Below, one piece after another: positions 1 to 6,770 of a stretch of DNA of 6,811 nt. Source of the stretch: Oscillospiraceae bacterium (GTDB lineage: Bacteria; Bacillota; Clostridia; Oscillospirales; Ruminococcaceae); NCBI GenBank assembly GCA_017848155.1, contig JAGAKC010000033.1, positions 1 through 6,811 of the forward strand, written 5' to 3'. The position numbers were made by a program, and so were the translations under genes. The notes beneath the pieces were generated by a model that was not told where the DNA came from, did not search any database, and saw only the letters and a program-made list of their open reading frames with translations. Within the stretch, counting starts at the first letter, position 1, and each line of letters starts with the position of its first letter.

Positions 1-1283
1 ATGACCTGACCTATATTGCCGGGAACTGCTTCCATCATGATTTCGTTCTTACCCTGCTTGAGGTAAACGTAAATGGGATTTCCATCGTTATCTGCAAGCT
101 CAACAGTCTGCCAGTTGGGATCGTACTTGATCCTTACATCGTCAAGCTCCTTGCAGGGAACCACTCCGTTTATGTACACTCTTCTGTTGGAGAAGAATCC
201 ACGCATCGTGCTCTGACGGCACTTCATCTGGATGGTGTACCATCCGTCAGCGGGAACCTCTACCTCCCAGTTTACAGCCTGAGTTGCCTGATCCCATGTA
301 TCTGTACCGAGCGTATTGTAACGCTTCTTGATGGGATCGGGGTTAGGGCTGATGTGATAATCCACTCTGTCGAATGTAGGATACAGTGTGGAGGATGTTG
401 TATACTTGGGAGTTTCCGCCTCAAACTTGATTGCGGCACCTGTGGAGATTGCAGGTGTATTGTTGATCTCATCCTCTGTGGGCGCAATATCTGCATACGC
501 AGGAAGCTCCTCAGAGTTGAAGAAACGGATGTTATTTATGTAGAGATTTGTCTTAACACCCTCGAGTGTAAGCTCATGCTCACCCTCGGAAAGATAGAAG
601 AAATACGGTGTGTTGATAAGACCATCCTTATCCTTGATAGGATACTGCACCCAGCAGTCATATTCCACCTGGGGAGGACGCTTCTGGTTGCCTCTTGTAT
701 CCTCCTGGATACTGGTCTCGTTTTTCCAGTAACGGTCGAGCTCTACAAGCTCTACCTCGTCAAAGGGACTCTCCCCGTCAAGGAGAATACCGATCTCAAC
801 TGTTGTGTTCTGTCCTGCAACAGGCCAGTACAGCATTTCCATATTATAAAGACCTGCTGTTTCAACGTTGAACTTAAATGTGACGCTTCCCTCGGAGCCT
901 AACCATGAGATGCAGTCATCGTACTCCACGAAACGTGCGACCTCCTGAATATGTCCATCGGAATTGTCGACCTCACTTGTCTTTACAGACGCTATTTCGG
1001 CTCCGTTCGAAGCTGTAAAATCCTTTACATCGACGATGATCTCCTTCATAGGCATTGTCTTGTCGTCATACTTTTCGATGTAGTGTCTGTACGCATTCTT
1101 TGTGCTGACGATGCTGAGGCTGTCAGCAGTAATAGACGAATCTGTCTGTATTATGCTGTCCTCTTCCTCGACAGCTGCAGCCACGGTAAGAGTCGTGTGA
1201 ACCTGAAATGATGTAAAGAGCATCGCAGCAGACATGAACATTGATGCGGCTCTTTTCAGATTCAGACCTTGCTTATTTGCCAC
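1..1283 (-). CDS. Large secreted protein with two carbohydrate-binding-like domains (N-terminal part, cut by window edge)
   Basis: The frame is open from a GTG start to the left edge, giving 427 residues and no stop, so the gene continues outside the window. GTG is chosen because an AAAGGTGG ribosome site lies 8 bases upstream and a signal peptide follows directly. Residues 1-37 have a basic start (K4, K10, R11), a hydrophobic stretch (AASMFMSAAMLFTSF) and a likely cut after VAAA. No lipobox cysteine is visible. Residues about 65-258 form a first beta-rich domain with aromatic and Gly turns (AGLYNMEMLYWPVAG, FFYLSEGEHELTLEGV). Residues about 283-425 form a second, similar domain (VPADGWYTIQMKCR, YLKQGKNEIMMEAV). 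This layout, including the WKNE...RGNQKRPPQVE stretch (residues 186-207), resembles from memory the N-terminal half of the roughly 900-1000 residue extracellular solute-binding proteins of Firmicutes. Those carry CBM6/CBM35-like jelly-roll domains before the binding-protein fold. The likely role is extracellular glycan capture for an ABC system. The solute-binding fold itself lies outside the window, so the full identity is inferred. Confidence 0.75.
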   Translation of the reverse strand, partial: MANKQGLNLKRAASMFMSAAMLFTSFQVHTTLTVAAAVEEEDSIIQTDSSITADSLSIVSTKNAYRHYIEKYDDKTMPMKEIIVDVKDFTASNGAEIASVKTSEVDNSDGHIQEVARFVEYDDCISWLGSEGSVTFKFNVETAGLYNMEMLYWPVAGQNTTVEIGILLDGESPFDEVELVELDRYWKNETSIQEDTRGNQKRPPQVEYDCWVQYPIKDKDGLINTPYFFYLSEGEHELTLEGVKTNLYINNIRFFNSEELPAYADIAPTEDEINNTPAISTGAAIKFEAETPKYTTSSTLYPTFDRVDYHISPNPDPIKKRYNTLGTDTWDQATQAVNWEVEVPADGWYTIQMKCRQSTMRGFFSNRRVYINGVVPCKELDDVRIKYDPNWQTVELADNDGNPIYVYLKQGKNEIMMEAVPGNIGQV

Positions 1284-1388
1284 AGTATTTTCCACCTTTC
1301 CTAGTTTACTGTTTTGCAGCATATCGCCATACGGCGCAAATCGGGTTCTCCCTCCCGATTATGATACATTGTTCCGTTTTACAAACGG
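1282..1388 (-). promoter_or_regulatory. Intercistronic region with several small hairpins before the solute-binding-like gene
   Basis: Between the second ATPase gene and the GTG start of the next gene lie four inverted repeats. The first is CCGTTT-GTA-AAACGG (1374-1388), spanning the ATPase stop codon. The second is AATCGGG with an 8-base loop and CCCGATT (1339-1360), a perfect 7-pair stem. The third is CGCC-GTAT-GGCG (1325-1336). The fourth is ACAGTA/TACTGT (1282-1287 with 1307-1312), which would place the ribosome site in its loop and its base next to the start codon. None is followed by a U run, so they are not simple terminators. I found no convincing promoter here. RNA processing, mRNA stabilisation or translational control are possible; I recognise no known riboswitch class. 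The repeats are seen directly; the role is inference. Confidence 0.4.
1292..1299 (-). promoter_or_regulatory. Ribosome binding site deciding a GTG start
   Basis: AAAGGTGG lies 8 bases upstream of the GTG at 1283. It supports this start over the in-frame ATG codons 15 and 17, which would cut into the signal peptide and lack a ribosome site. Confidence 0.7.
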
Positions 1389-2290
1389 GGGTAAATACAT
1401 ATCCGGCCTTCCTCAAGCTCAACACGGACTTTATCTCCGCCCTTGATCCCGAGCTCTTCCAGATATTCCTTGGGTATCTGCAGTCTGCCTGCACGGTCGA
1501 GCACAGAAAGCTCTTCGTGACCTGCCTCCGCAGCCTCCTCTGACAGCTGTCCGAAGGACTTCAATGCAGAGGACTTTCGCACAAGCTCTGTCGAGGTCTT
1601 TCCGTCACGTATAGCAACGACTCTGTCGATCTGTGCTGAAAGCTTTGTATCATGCGTTACTATTATAATTGTAACGCCCATGACCTTATTAAGATCGCGG
1701 AAAACATCAAGGATAAGCTTTGCTGTAGCCGTATCCACCGAACCCGTAGGTTCATCCGCGAGGAGCAGCTTTGGGTTGTTGGACAGCGCGATAGCTATCG
1801 CCACCCTTTGCTGTTCACCGCCCGACATCTGATCGAGGCGGCTGCTTTTTCTGTGGGAGAGTCCCACCATATCCAGCAGCTCTGTAGCTCTCTGCTTTCG
1901 GTTATTAAAACCCGATAACAGAAGGGGCATCTCCACATTCTGCTGTGCTGACAAATACGGAATCAGGTTGCGCGCATTATTCTGCCACACAAACCCGACT
2001 GTATTTCTTTTATATTCTATAAAGTCCTGCTCTGTAAACTTCAGCATGTCTTTTCCGTCAACGAAAAGAGCACCTGCCGATGGTCTGTCAAGGCCGCCCA
2101 GCATGTTCAGCAGCGTTGATTTACCGCTGCCCGATGCACCGACTATACCCATCAGCTCTCCACGCTCGACCGTGAGGTCAAGTCCCTGCAGAGCCATAAC
2201 CTCGACATCCTTGGACTTATATATCTTGACAAGATTATCCGCCTGCACCATGACGTTTTCAGGCGGTGCCAGCATGACCTTTTTAGGCAT
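1379..2290 (-). CDS. LolD/MacB-type ABC transporter ATPase with C-terminal AbrB/SpoVT-like domain
   Basis: This 303-residue cytoplasmic ATPase should power a membrane transporter. All ATPase motifs are present: Walker A GASGSGKST (51-59), Q-loop Q103 in VGFVWQ, signature MSGGEQQR (155-162), Walker B LLLADEP with catalytic E180, D-loop SVD, and H-loop H213. The stretch RNLIPYL (107-113) after the Q-loop is, from memory, typical of one MacB-like subgroup. The ATPase ends near residue 235. A linker follows, then residues 263-302 match the AbrB/SpoVT swapped-hairpin pattern: LDRAGRLQIP, LEELGI, GDKVRVELEEGR and a final IYP. In AbrB this fold dimerises and binds DNA; here it may serve dimerisation or regulation. 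The ATG is preceded by AGGAGG with a 6-base gap. The start overlaps the previous ATPase gene by 8 bases, which implies translational coupling and suggests a heterodimeric pair. Family calls are firm; the substrate is unknown. Confidence 0.93.
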   Translation of the reverse strand: MPKKVMLAPPENVMVQADNLVKIYKSKDVEVMALQGLDLTVERGELMGIVGASGSGKSTLLNMLGGLDRPSAGALFVDGKDMLKFTEQDFIEYKRNTVGFVWQNNARNLIPYLSAQQNVEMPLLLSGFNNRKQRATELLDMVGLSHRKSSRLDQMSGGEQQRVAIAIALSNNPKLLLADEPTGSVDTATAKLILDVFRDLNKVMGVTIIIVTHDTKLSAQIDRVVAIRDGKTSTELVRKSSALKSFGQLSEEAAEAGHEELSVLDRAGRLQIPKEYLEELGIKGGDKVRVELEEGRICIYPRL

Positions 2291-3372: not shown

Positions 3373-3404
3373 AAATAAAACAAAAACCGCCCCGAAGGGC
3401 GGTT
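3373..3404 (-). terminator. Intrinsic terminator after the cohesin-like gene
   Basis: On the minus strand, AACCGCCC-TTCG-GGGCGGTT forms an 8-pair stem with a stable cUUCGg loop, followed by the U-rich tail TTTGTTTTATTT. It lies 43 bases past the stop codon and ends the dockerin/cohesin-like unit. Confidence 0.95.
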
Positions 3405-3447
3405 CATTTCGTTTTTAAGAATAGATCTAAGTCAGATTATCTCTGAA

Positions 3448-4119
3448 TTACTTTCTCTTCTTAGCAACTACGATAGCAGCACCAGCGAGAACTGCGGGAA
3501 CTACTGCGAGAGCGATACCAGTGTCAACCTGGTTGTCAGATGTGTCCTCTGTAGAGGGCTCAACTGTTGCGTCAGCTGTATCCTCGATTGTGATGTCAGC
3601 TGTCTCCTCAGCTGTCTCCTCAGCTGTCTCCTCAACAGTTTCCTCAACTGTCTCCTCAACTGTAGGAACGTCTGTTACATCAGCGGACTCACCGTCAACA
3701 ACAACTGCAACTACAGCTGTAGCGTCAACGTCAGCAGCAGAAGACTCAGCGGGAACGAGAGTTACGGAAACTTCCTCGTCAGCAGCAGCGTCTACTGTGA
3801 ATGTGAGGGTCAGGAATACCTGATCAGCGGGAGCCTCAGCGCCTGCCCATGTGAAGATCATTGTATCTGCATTGAAGAATGCAAATGTGTTAGCGGGAGC
3901 TGTAACAACAGCAGAATCAGCAACCAGTGTGAGGTTGTCAGAAGGATCTACTGTGAAAGTAACGTTGTCAGTTGTAACGCCTGTAGCAGCGATCTCAACA
4001 GTGATTGTCTCGCCTGCAACAGCTTCATCGAGAATTGCAGGTGCGAAAGTAGCGGAAGCAGCAACAGCTGTCATAGAAACAACAGCAGCAGCTACGCCGA
4101 GAGATAAAATCTTCTTCAT
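3448..4119 (-). CDS. Secreted, surface-anchored protein with a cohesin-like domain
   Basis: This is a 223-residue protein. The start is the second in-frame ATG (4119): GGAGG sits 8 bases upstream and overlaps the earlier ATG at 4134, so the upstream codon is part of the ribosome site. Residues 1-23 are a signal peptide (MKKILSLGVAAAVV..., cut after ASA). Residues about 30-123 are beta-rich and follow the cohesin order: AGETITVEI, VTFTVDPSDNLTLVAD, NTFAFFNADTMIFTW, VFLTLTFTVDA, VSVTLVP. The domain is shorter than the usual 140 or so residues, so the cohesin call is tentative. A linker rich in Glu and Thr contains five (V/A)EET units (154-173). The end reads NQVDTG, a hydrophobic stretch (IALAVVPAVLAGAAIVVA) and KKRK, the layout of a sortase-type or membrane anchor with a non-canonical motif. 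It lies just downstream of a dockerin gene, so it may be the surface receptor of that protein. An alternative is a general surface adhesin unrelated to cohesins. Confidence 0.85.
   Translation of the reverse strand: MKKILSLGVAAAVVSMTAVAASATFAPAILDEAVAGETITVEIAATGVTTDNVTFTVDPSDNLTLVADSAVVTAPANTFAFFNADTMIFTWAGAEAPADQVFLTLTFTVDAAADEEVSVTLVPAESSAADVDATAVVAVVVDGESADVTDVPTVEETVEETVEETAEETAEETADITIEDTADATVEPSTEDTSDNQVDTGIALAVVPAVLAGAAIVVAKKRK
3598..3657. repeat. 12-base tandem repeat encoding (V/A)EET units
   Basis: Five 12-base units (AGCTGTCTCCTC three times, then AACAGTTTCCTC and AACTGTCTCCTC on the plus strand) encode the acidic linker of the cohesin-like protein. Each unit keeps the reading frame, so unit number could vary by slippage without breaking the gene. 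Confidence 0.85.
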
Positions 4120-4127
4120 ATTATTTT

Positions 4128-4132
4128 CCTCC
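4128..4132 (-). promoter_or_regulatory. Ribosome binding site deciding the start of the cohesin-like gene
   Basis: GGAGG lies 8 bases before the ATG at 4119 and overlaps the alternative ATG at 4134. This rules out the longer form and places the MKK signal peptide at the N-terminus. Confidence 0.85.
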
Positions 4133-4144
4133 ATAAATTTTATA

Positions 4145-4202
4145 GTTTATTTAATCGGTTCATTCCCGGGGCCGAAGCCCCGAGAAGAACGATTTAACAA
4201 AC
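4145..4202 (-). other. Very long intercistronic hairpin with cUUCGg tetraloop
   Basis: On the minus strand the arms 4202-4177 and 4172-4145 pair over roughly 25 positions around a TTCG loop. The inner GGGGC/GCCCC is perfect. Outside it, TTCTC/GGGAA and GTTC/GAAC continue with a one-base bulge, then an AT-rich outer part (GTTTGTTAAATCG with CGATTAAATAAAC) has one mismatch, one wobble and a second bulge. The C(UUCG)G loop is specific to the minus-strand transcript. No U run follows, so it is a poor terminator. I see no promoter between the hairpin and the next gene, so the two genes are probably co-transcribed. The hairpin could then protect or separate the two messages, as known for intercistronic stem-loops in the cip-cel cellulosome operon of Clostridium cellulolyticum. 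Attenuation is the alternative. Confidence 0.75.
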
Positions 4203-4223
4203 AAGAATCAAGTCAGTCCTTAA

Positions 4224-6770
4224 TTACTTAAGGATACCAGCAGCTACATCCTTGAGGATCTTAGCAGCGTCAGCGGAGTTACCTGCGCCGTCGTTGTTGT
4301 AGTCCCACAGAGGAAGCTGTGCAGCCTCGCCAGCAGCGATCTTCTTCAGGATAGCAGCAGCGTCGTCAGAGAATACCTTGCCGTCGCCGTTTACATCACC
4401 GATGAGGATTGTAGGATTGAGCTGCTTGTCAACCTCAGCCATGAGAGCCTCGTAAGCAGCCTTGAGCTCAGGGTGGAAGTTGCTCTTGTATACTGTAACA
4501 GCCTTGTCTGTGATTGTGATGTCGTAGGAATCCTTATCCCATGTGTATACACGGTTGTGAGCGAGGAGGTATCTGTCCTCTGTGTAAGCTTCGTTGTCGA
4601 GCTCTACGTTCTCAGCTGTGTAGTACTTAGGCTCCTTAACGATGGACATATAGTAAGCTGTATCGAGAATGAGTGCTCTCAGCTCCTCTGTCTCTGTCAG
4701 ATCGTTAGCGTCGATCATTTCCTCAACCTCAGCGATGTAGTTGTAGATCTCGCCGTAGCTGTACTTGAATGCGCACCAGTCATTGTAAAGCTCATTATAG
4801 AAGCCCTCGAGGTAGTGATATACCTGGTCAGCATACTCAAGACCATTGATAGAAGCGATCTCATCGTAAGCAGAGATGTTGTCCTTGTACTTCTTGTCAG
4901 CGTCAGCTTCCTTAACCCACTCACGAACCTCTTCACGAGCAGCTACCATGTTCTCGAGAGAATCTGCGAAGATAGCAGCCTGGGATGTCTTCTCCTCGAG
5001 GTCGTAAGACATCTCGATGAGCTCCTTAACATCCTTCTTTGTGTGCTTGCAGTAAGAACCGCCGTATCTGTCCTCGAGAGCGTACTTCAGAGCTCTGTGA
5101 ACGATTGTCCACTCAGCTGCAGAACCCTTCTCTGTACCCTCAGCGATCTGACCGATGGTGTCGATGTTAGCAGCGTGGATGCCAGCGTATTTCTCTGCGA
5201 GGTACTCGTAAGCGAGGGGCAGAGCGTCGCCGAGTGCTGTGAAGTTATCGAAGCCAAGTGTGTGAGCCTCACCCTTGTAGATCTCAGCAGCGGGAACGTA
5301 GTTGTCGATGTAATCAGCAAATGTCTGGTAAACACCGGACCACCAGTCAGCGTCAACCCATACATTGCCAACGTGATCGTCAACAAATACCTTTTCGCCT
5401 TCTGTGCCATCAACGTACTCGGGCTTTACATATACGTAGTCAGCGAGGTCGCACTTAACGCCAGCAGCGATCTTCTTGTAGTCACCCTTAGCGGGAACCT
5501 CATCAGCAACGCCTGTTACGATGCCGTCCTCGTTGAACAGGAAGTAGATATCCTTGCCGCCTTTCTTCTTGGGAACGATTCTGAATCTCAGAGTAGCAGA
5601 CATGAGCTTGCCGCCGCCCCACTCTGTGATGAAGAGAGCGTCCTTGTCAAGGTCAAGAATGTCGTCAGTTGTCAGGCCCTTGAATGCAGCGATGTCATTC
5701 CAAGCCTTGAACTCTGTCTCGTAAAGACCCTTTCTAACCTCAAGCTCGATGTTGTCGAGACCAACAACTTTAGCAACAGTCTGGAACAGTTCGATAGCGT
5801 CTGTAGCAGCGAAGTCATATACAAGTCTGCCGTGGTACTCGTCGAGGAGCTTCTGAACGTCAGCCTTTCTAGCCTTCTTTGTCTCGTCAGCCTGCCATGT
5901 GTTGATCTGGCCAGCTACCTCAACTGCGAGACTGTATGCCATTCTGATGTCATCGAGAGTTGTCTTGTCAGCTGTCTTAACCTCTACGAACTCATCATAC
6001 TTTGTGTAGATGTAGGGCAGGAGGTTCTTGAGCTGGTCGAACATTTCACCGTATGTTACACCAACAGTCTCACCGTTGTTAGTGAAGTACCAACCGAACC
6101 AGAGAGGATCAACGTTGTGGTTAGCTGTACCTCTTCTCCACTGGTCGTAAGCCTTCTCCTTATCGAGAGCCTTCTCCATTGTCTTGATAGCAGCTGTGAA
6201 AGCGGACTTTGTAACTGCCTTGTAAGCATTGAGACCAGCCTTAGCGTCTGTCAGATCGATCCAAGCGTCTGTGATGATACGGAGGTCGGAGGAATCCAGA
6301 ACGGACTCAGCCTCATCGTAAGCGCTCTCGAATATATCCCAAGACTCAGGTGTGTAGATGAGGTCGCCGAGCTCTTCGTTGTTGATGTTGTCTGTCTCGT
6401 AGATCTTTGTGCAGGAATCAATGAGAGCCTTGAGCTCCTCAGCAGTTCTCTGGATCATCTGAGCTCTAACAGCAAGAACCATGTCATAAGCTGTTGTGCA
6501 CTCGTACTCTGTAGCCTCGCCTGTCTTAGCCATCTCGAGAACGTTGTCAGCATGCTCGAGAGCGTCAAGCATTCTCTCTGCGCATCTGGAACCGTACTCA
6601 TAGATATCAGCGGAACGGTAGGAATCGCCGTATACTTCTGTGAGCAGCTTCTCAAGCTCTTCAGGTGTCTTGAGAGCGTTTGTTGCCTCTTCTGCATTGG
6701 CAACCACTGCGATGGAAGAAAGTGCCATTACAGAAGCCATTGCGGAAGAAAAGATTCTTCTTCTTAACAT
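4224..6770 (-). CDS. Large secreted helical protein with C-terminal type I dockerin
   Basis: This is an 848-residue protein. Residues 1-26 are a signal peptide (MLRRRIF..., cut after ANA). Residues 30-380 and 500-710 look mainly alpha-helical. A FIVAR-like helical unit is visible at 139-180 (YTPESWDIFESAYDEAESVL...LTDAKAGL), and a weaker one near 578-622. Residues about 380-480 are richer in beta strands (ATLRFRIV, KDIYFLFNEDG, YVYVKPEYV, GNVWVDADWW). Aromatic clusters occur at 207-230 and 471-481. Residues 789-848 are a dockerin with two calcium loops: DVNGDGKVFSDD (792-803) and DYNNDGAGNSAD (823-834). Position 9 of the first loop is Phe instead of the usual Asn or Asp. I recognise no catalytic domain, so it is likely a structural, adhesive or substrate-binding component that docks onto a cohesin. 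The ATG has AGGAGG 6 bases upstream. Codon use is strongly biased, suggesting high expression. The next gene encodes a cohesin-like anchored protein. The dockerin call is firm; the function of the main body is unknown. Confidence 0.93.
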   Translation of the reverse strand: MLRRRIFSSAMASVMALSSIAVVANAEEATNALKTPEELEKLLTEVYGDSYRSADIYEYGSRCAERMLDALEHADNVLEMAKTGEATEYECTTAYDMVLAVRAQMIQRTAEELKALIDSCTKIYETDNINNEELGDLIYTPESWDIFESAYDEAESVLDSSDLRIITDAWIDLTDAKAGLNAYKAVTKSAFTAAIKTMEKALDKEKAYDQWRRGTANHNVDPLWFGWYFTNNGETVGVTYGEMFDQLKNLLPYIYTKYDEFVEVKTADKTTLDDIRMAYSLAVEVAGQINTWQADETKKARKADVQKLLDEYHGRLVYDFAATDAIELFQTVAKVVGLDNIELEVRKGLYETEFKAWNDIAAFKGLTTDDILDLDKDALFITEWGGGKLMSATLRFRIVPKKKGGKDIYFLFNEDGIVTGVADEVPAKGDYKKIAAGVKCDLADYVYVKPEYVDGTEGEKVFVDDHVGNVWVDADWWSGVYQTFADYIDNYVPAAEIYKGEAHTLGFDNFTALGDALPLAYEYLAEKYAGIHAANIDTIGQIAEGTEKGSAAEWTIVHRALKYALEDRYGGSYCKHTKKDVKELIEMSYDLEEKTSQAAIFADSLENMVAAREEVREWVKEADADKKYKDNISAYDEIASINGLEYADQVYHYLEGFYNELYNDWCAFKYSYGEIYNYIAEVEEMIDANDLTETEELRALILDTAYYMSIVKEPKYYTAENVELDNEAYTEDRYLLAHNRVYTWDKDSYDITITDKAVTVYKSNFHPELKAAYEALMAEVDKQLNPTILIGDVNGDGKVFSDDAAAILKKIAAGEAAQLPLWDYNNDGAGNSADAAKILKDVAAGILK

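Follow-up and report, generated by a model that had tools for sequence, protein, structure and literature searches.

Closest described systems

Cohesin-dockerin pairing is chiefly familiar as the code by which fibre-degrading machines are assembled. Here, two adjacent genes are analysed in a 6,811-base stretch of DNA from Oscillospiraceae bacterium (assembly GCA_017848155.1, contig JAGAKC010000033.1), hereafter the window, which is one entire contig of a 2.39 Mb genome in 498 contigs, 77% complete. The pair comprises (i) the gene of an 848-residue protein with a C-terminal dockerin, the large protein (4224-6770; open reading frame (ORF), PF00404 and AlphaFold2 (AF2) model), and (ii) the gene of a 228-residue protein with a predicted cohesin-like domain and an anchor signal, the small protein (3448-4134; ORF and homologues); both genes and all their features given below lie on the minus strand. 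The evidence moderately favours the small protein as a wall-anchored single-cohesin receptor, holding the dockerin of the adjacent, mostly helical 848-residue protein on the cell. The conserved two-gene surface unit is real and, by analogy, probably works like ScaE-CttA outside a cellulosome.

ScaE and CttA of Ruminococcus flavefaciens are encoded by adjacent genes, a cohesin protein with a sortase signal anchoring a cellulose-binding dockerin protein (PMC4081043). The window pair is likewise formed by adjacent genes for a predicted cohesin-type anchor protein and a dockerin protein. The likeness to cttA-scaE proposed in the initial annotation of the locus extends to the adjacency and to the downstream position of the anchor, in 20 of 20 genomes, but not to the surroundings, since the pairs of this genus adjoin ABC-transporter (12) or RNase HI (8) genes and no sca-type cluster. 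In R. bromii, the starch-binding Sas20 docks to the second cohesin of the sortase-bearing Sca5, a protein of 894 amino acids with two cohesins and two X25 modules (PMC9112005). The Sca5 cohesin is the closest fold to the small domain of the window among the matches listed, whereas the small protein has 228 residues and one domain, and no starch-binding family was found by Pfam. R. albus carries many dockerins and a lone, adaptor-like cohesin protein that also bears a dockerin (PMC4081043); the genus of the window similarly shows many dockerins and no more than one cohesin protein in each genome, but its cohesin-like domain and an anchor signal share a single protein.

The entry 2ozn, the NagJ-NagH cohesin-dockerin complex of Clostridium perfringens, appears among the fold matches listed for the large protein; this pairing is non-cellulosomal and displays a FIVAR bundle beside the dockerin. 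The NagJ-NagH partners in C. perfringens are glycoside hydrolases, whereas the window pair combines a predicted wall-anchored protein with a body in which no enzyme is recognised. Among the open-access literature matches listed, no title or abstract opening describes such a pair.

Architecture of the small protein with a predicted anchor

The small protein comprises (i) an apparent signal peptide, about residues 1-28 (4051-4134), judged by eye and strongly conserved among homologues, (ii) a predicted cohesin-like nine-stranded domain, residues 33-146 (3697-4038), delimited from AF2 strands and backed by Foldseek matches, (iii) an acidic VEET/AEET repeat linker, about residues 150-197 (3544-3687), and (iv) a C-terminal anchor signal with VDTG, a hydrophobic stretch and KKRK, residues 201-228 (3451-3534), the last two read from the sequence. 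The AF2 model displays a β-rich domain with strands across residues 33-146; residues 149-213, including the linker, which varies among homologues, have a predicted local distance difference test score (pLDDT) below 50. The structure prediction and cohesin search proposed earlier as a check yield a predicted cohesin-like fold, with 7urp as the top Foldseek match and cohesins occupying 31 of the first 32 rows and 40 of the 50 VIA rows among the matches listed.

PF00963 (cohesin) scores 14.9 bits in the small protein of the window and 22.5 in G031, both under the cut-off of 24.1; searches against solved structures give 5n5p as the best cohesin (E 0.048), single-sequence runs return ribosomal and enzyme chance matches, and the profile-profile comparison with cohesins is weak, its alignment partly covering the signal peptide. 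Of the architecture originally described, the apparent secretion signal, linker and anchor-like tail stand, and the cohesin fold is predicted while PF00963 stays under its cut-off; the small protein is a predicted rather than an established cohesin. The anchor motif is VDTG and not NPxTG, the form present in 13 of 23 family members, and the NCBIfam model Rumino_NPXTG (NF033846) scores 16.8 bits, under its cut-off of 23.5. The genome of the window has two sortase-family matches above cut-off, and export and sortase anchoring of the small protein are predicted.

Architecture of the large dockerin protein

The large protein starts with an apparent signal peptide, about residues 1-26 (6693-6770), judged by eye from the sequence, a region in which an alignment of 39 sequences shows numerous invariant positions. 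It ends in a true type I dockerin, residues 787-848 (4227-4412), with two F-hand calcium loops and a PF00404 match over residues 791-838 (E 1.2e-6, 29.1 bits against a cut-off of 22.9). The 'tandem dockerin' of the initial annotation is a single dockerin with two F-hand repeats and not two dockerins, while its description of a C-terminal dockerin on a protein without a recognisable enzyme domain agrees with PF00404 being the only family above cut-off. Besides the dockerin, Pfam (listed at E<=5) gives only a FIVAR match (PF07554) of 17.0 bits, under the cut-off of 29.2, and one weak BBS7 match, with no X-module, carbohydrate-binding module or starch-binding family found; NCBIfam (listed at E<=1) gives one weak match only.

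The AF2 model (mean pLDDT 83.9) shows a mostly helical body, with a hairpin and a helix of unknown type at residues 748-784. The fold matches listed cover mainly residues 107-182 and the dockerin, and the FIVAR-like character suggested for the body is borne out by a predicted FIVAR-fold three-helix bundle, residues 107-183 (6222-6452), in the structure search. The large protein is likely a non-catalytic adhesin, whose FIVAR-type body may bind a surface ligand of host, plant or microbe; its dockerin would dock in a calcium-dependent manner onto the cohesin-like domain of the small protein.

Conservation of the pair across the genus

In a genus sample of 43 genomes, that of the window included, and with the small gene scored by matches covering its N-terminal domain, 20 genomes carry the small gene, and all 20 have a large-gene homologue directly upstream on the same strand, the persistence that had been named as a test of the pairing. 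G034 is counted among the 20 by the dockerin end of a large gene at a contig edge, and G019 is scored as lacking the small gene, its contig stopping shortly past the last large-gene match. Since the pairs occupy two distinct sites, with the ABC-transporter genes as in the window or with RNase HI, the linkage is not explained by one conserved neighbourhood. Contig breaks were considered as a sign of variability and left unused: contigs stop within or next to the gene in G000, G001, G019, G025 and G034, with about 4 of 21 expected by a rough count. Second copies of the small gene occur among other dockerin genes at L098:8302-8967 (G018:C25) and G062:C11:35456-36088.

In several relatives, a further protein of 264-283 residues with an anchor-like tail is encoded upstream of the large gene (L079:7520-8371, L081:14056-14901, two in L089, L090:868-1683, L092:3012-3806 and L249:8416-9252), a position before which the window contig ends. 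Its start motif is present in 10 of 11 relatives with the ABC-transporter site (G015 excepted), no Pfam family scores above cut-off in the seven proteins scanned, and a role as a second cohesin was rejected for lack of any cohesin match in these seven proteins from six genomes.

Probable transcriptional unit and intercistronic hairpin

The operon organisation, shared terminator and shared codon bias claimed for the locus are all upheld. An intrinsic terminator-like site lies downstream of the small gene (3384-3405) and the terminator scan lists none between the two genes; the scan finds five terminator-like sites in the window against 2.7 (sd 1.8) in shuffled sequence. The downstream ABC-transporter genes have their own promoter-like site (3119-3091, 12 of 12 consensus bases matched) and, with the terminator-like site after the pair, this makes the pair look like a separate unit. 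The effective number of codons is 30.7 and 29.3 for the pair, 47.9 and 52.7 for the ABC-transporter genes, and 44.0 for a partial secreted-protein gene, with a codon-usage correlation of 0.95 between the large and small genes; this strong bias suggests high expression. The contig edge lies 41 bases upstream of the large-gene start codon, and the promoter and upstream neighbour thus fall outside the contig.

The hairpin between the genes (4145-4202), identified from fold energy and covariation, is a candidate element for mRNA processing or stabilisation. The gap has a fold energy of -33.9 kcal/mol in the window and, in the 19 genomes with an extracted gap (G034 left out), measures 71-98 bases with values of -25.9 to -37.8 kcal/mol. 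Seven of 12 consensus pairs show at least one compensatory change, although certain pairs are disrupted or gapped in as many as 7 of 19 rows, and an Rfam search matched no family. As the hairpin has no U-tract, processing or stabilisation of the mRNA appears likelier than termination, and the small anchor would probably be produced in excess through this processing or stabilisation.

Dockerin complement of the genus

From the genus, 100 dockerin ORFs were extracted, and 88, none of them a large protein of the pair, were scanned by Pfam with a threshold of E<=0.001 for 22 and E<=1e-5 for 66 (87 from pair genomes and one from G065); outside the scan are four from G062, two from G033 and six from G006, G009 (two), G019, G021 and G032. 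L209, L211 and L218 are clipped at the end of the fetched stretch, and several more at contig ends. The recognised modules comprise two GH5, one set of BNR repeats, five transglutaminase-like and one M60-like domain, one GH85_C, one CBM65 and one flavodoxin domain, the remainder being mostly LRR, FIVAR, Ig-like, Fn3-associated/CHB_HEX_C, β-helix, MBG/YDG and InlB-type repeats. A glycoside-hydrolase-like domain is found in 3 of the 88; many of the others show no recognised module, and enzymes from unknown families may be present among them. Two side observations concern this complement: (i) a 710-residue dockerin protein with LRR and FIVAR signals (L137:1571-3703, G000:C294) is matched in length by dockerin proteins of many relatives, and (ii) variants of an EYVVMLCEFSD motif immediately precede the dockerin of different proteins from G015, G016 and G012 (L140-L147, L203-L210 and L150-L156).

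Dockerin matches, of which a few proteins yield two, number 129 in pair genomes (median 5) and 21 in the others (median 1; Mann-Whitney p 2.5e-6), and the excess persists after subtracting one per pair genome (p 6e-5). On a single-gene tree of 36 of the 43 genomes (without G000, G003, G008, G009, G019, G025 and G026), pair presence changes four times, and the association with dockerins gives p 1.5e-4 at lambda 0.5, 0.012 at lambda 0.9 and 0.12 under full Brownian motion, the last being a poorer fit than the other two. The association weakens once phylogeny is modelled, and phylogeny therefore accounts for part of the excess.

A second test concerns the recognition segments. With 117 of 119 sequences kept in the alignment and 18 genomes in the test, the dockerin of the large protein shares 0.509 identity with other dockerins of its own genome against 0.387 between genomes, an excess reached in none of 20,000 permutations; excluding a class of 690-775-residue proteins, the values are 0.535 and 0.427 (16 genomes, p 5e-5), while in the dockerins of that class, which serve as control, the effect is not clear (p 0.09 and 0.37, 11 genomes). 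Part of this resemblance may stem from genome-specific amino-acid composition and from duplication of dockerins; it fits a single anchor for many dockerin proteins in most relatives. In these relatives, the same anchor would also serve other dockerin proteins, whose recognised modules are mainly of adhesin type.

Alternative explanations

The resemblance bears directly on whether the anchor holds its neighbour only, the other dockerins using other or missing partners. The genome of the window departs from the pattern (rank 17 of 18), its large-protein dockerin being unlike the other three, and dockerin proteins of about 700 residues occur in G009, G021 and G032 without a small gene; yet in 8 of 18 genomes the own-genome dockerins give the highest average match, in four more they come second or third, and clades lacking the pair have few dockerins, which makes such exclusivity unlikely. 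The 'dedicated pair' envisaged initially accordingly appears too narrow for most relatives, and may still apply in the window's own genome. An orthologue of ScaE-CttA anchoring plant-fibre-degrading enzymes in a reduced cellulosome is more improbable still. Gene order and logic match cttA-scaE (PMC4081043), and two GH5 cellulases and one BNR-repeat protein carry dockerins; against this, 3 of 88 dockerin proteins carry a glycoside-hydrolase-like domain, while about half of the dockerins accompany carbohydrate-active enzymes in the account given for R. flavefaciens FD-1 (PMC2930009), and PF00963 exceeds its cut-off in 1 of 43 genomes, on a protein of another type with a Big_2 domain (G033). No multi-cohesin protein was found in the 43 genomes, many of which are incomplete and in which diverged ones could escape. 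Taken as a multi-cohesin scaffoldin together with many dockerin-bearing glycoside hydrolases, a cellulosome does not emerge from these counts, and this reading was set aside. Separately, G065 encodes a cohesin-like match below cut-off (L169) that, like the G033 cohesin (L163), is accompanied by Big_2, with a dockerin protein directly after it.

A more serious competitor, which we nevertheless consider doubtful, is that the small protein is another β-sandwich surface protein, such as an adhesin stalk or a CLIPPER-like protein, which does not bind dockerins and is linked to the large gene through abundant surface products. The near-complete occupation of the top fold rows by cohesins, the strict linkage with a dockerin gene at two sites and the larger dockerin numbers where the small gene is present all speak against it. 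Three cases weigh against the cohesin-receptor interpretation: orphan small-protein homologues in G005 (L247:4391-5323, beside RNase HI) and G010 (L248:4785-5783, near a contig end) have no large gene directly upstream, neither genome yields a dockerin match, and the G061 pair carries a diverged dockerin. These cases are compatible with decay of the system and also with a different job for the small protein.

If a wall-anchored cohesin receptor is indeed encoded here, members of a gut bacterial genus would display mainly non-enzymatic surface proteins through it, in a minimal one-anchor system whose docking code is set apart from polysaccharide breakdown, and a short, diverged cohesin would become available to protein engineering.

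Cassette-like copies in G034

G034 contains nine large-gene 3' ends (L259 and L251-L258, on contigs C22, C18, C13, C2, C14, C31, C29, C24 and C17), which share a near-identical border up to the exact first dockerin residues (SPTTTKGD) and diverge immediately beyond it: a single copy runs on into a complete dockerin with the small gene behind it, another into the remnant of a dockerin, and seven into other sequence. At the opposite end, four copies can be read upstream of the start codon, and these share an identical stretch through the ribosome-binding site into the signal peptide; a fifth copy starts at its start codon. The bodies between differ, with best local identities of 29-47% among seven copies and one pair at 82%. 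Judged from the copies, this arrangement looks like a candidate cassette system for exchanging the displayed body; each copy may be expressed from a start signal of its own, and the picture is limited by assembly breaks at the repeats. A tentative and on balance improbable extension would be a plug-and-socket design, with an anchored cohesin socket, a dockerin plug and a varying helical adhesin body, exchanged in at least G034 among scattered cassettes, in a switching that resembles antigenic variation and is built from cellulosome parts; in the open-access literature, no paper was found joining 'dockerin' with 'antigenic variation'. Such cassettes would add a way of swapping the displayed body with the anchor untouched.

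Neighbouring genes

Beyond the pair, the window encodes an ABC-transporter ATPase (1379-2290, minus strand) with a C-terminal MazE/AbrB-like domain (PF04014, residues 266-301, 30.1 against 24.7 bits), and the start of a probably secreted protein (3-1322, minus strand) with weak Golvesin_C and CBM35 matches. Several relatives carry proteins of about 1000 residues at the position of this partial gene.

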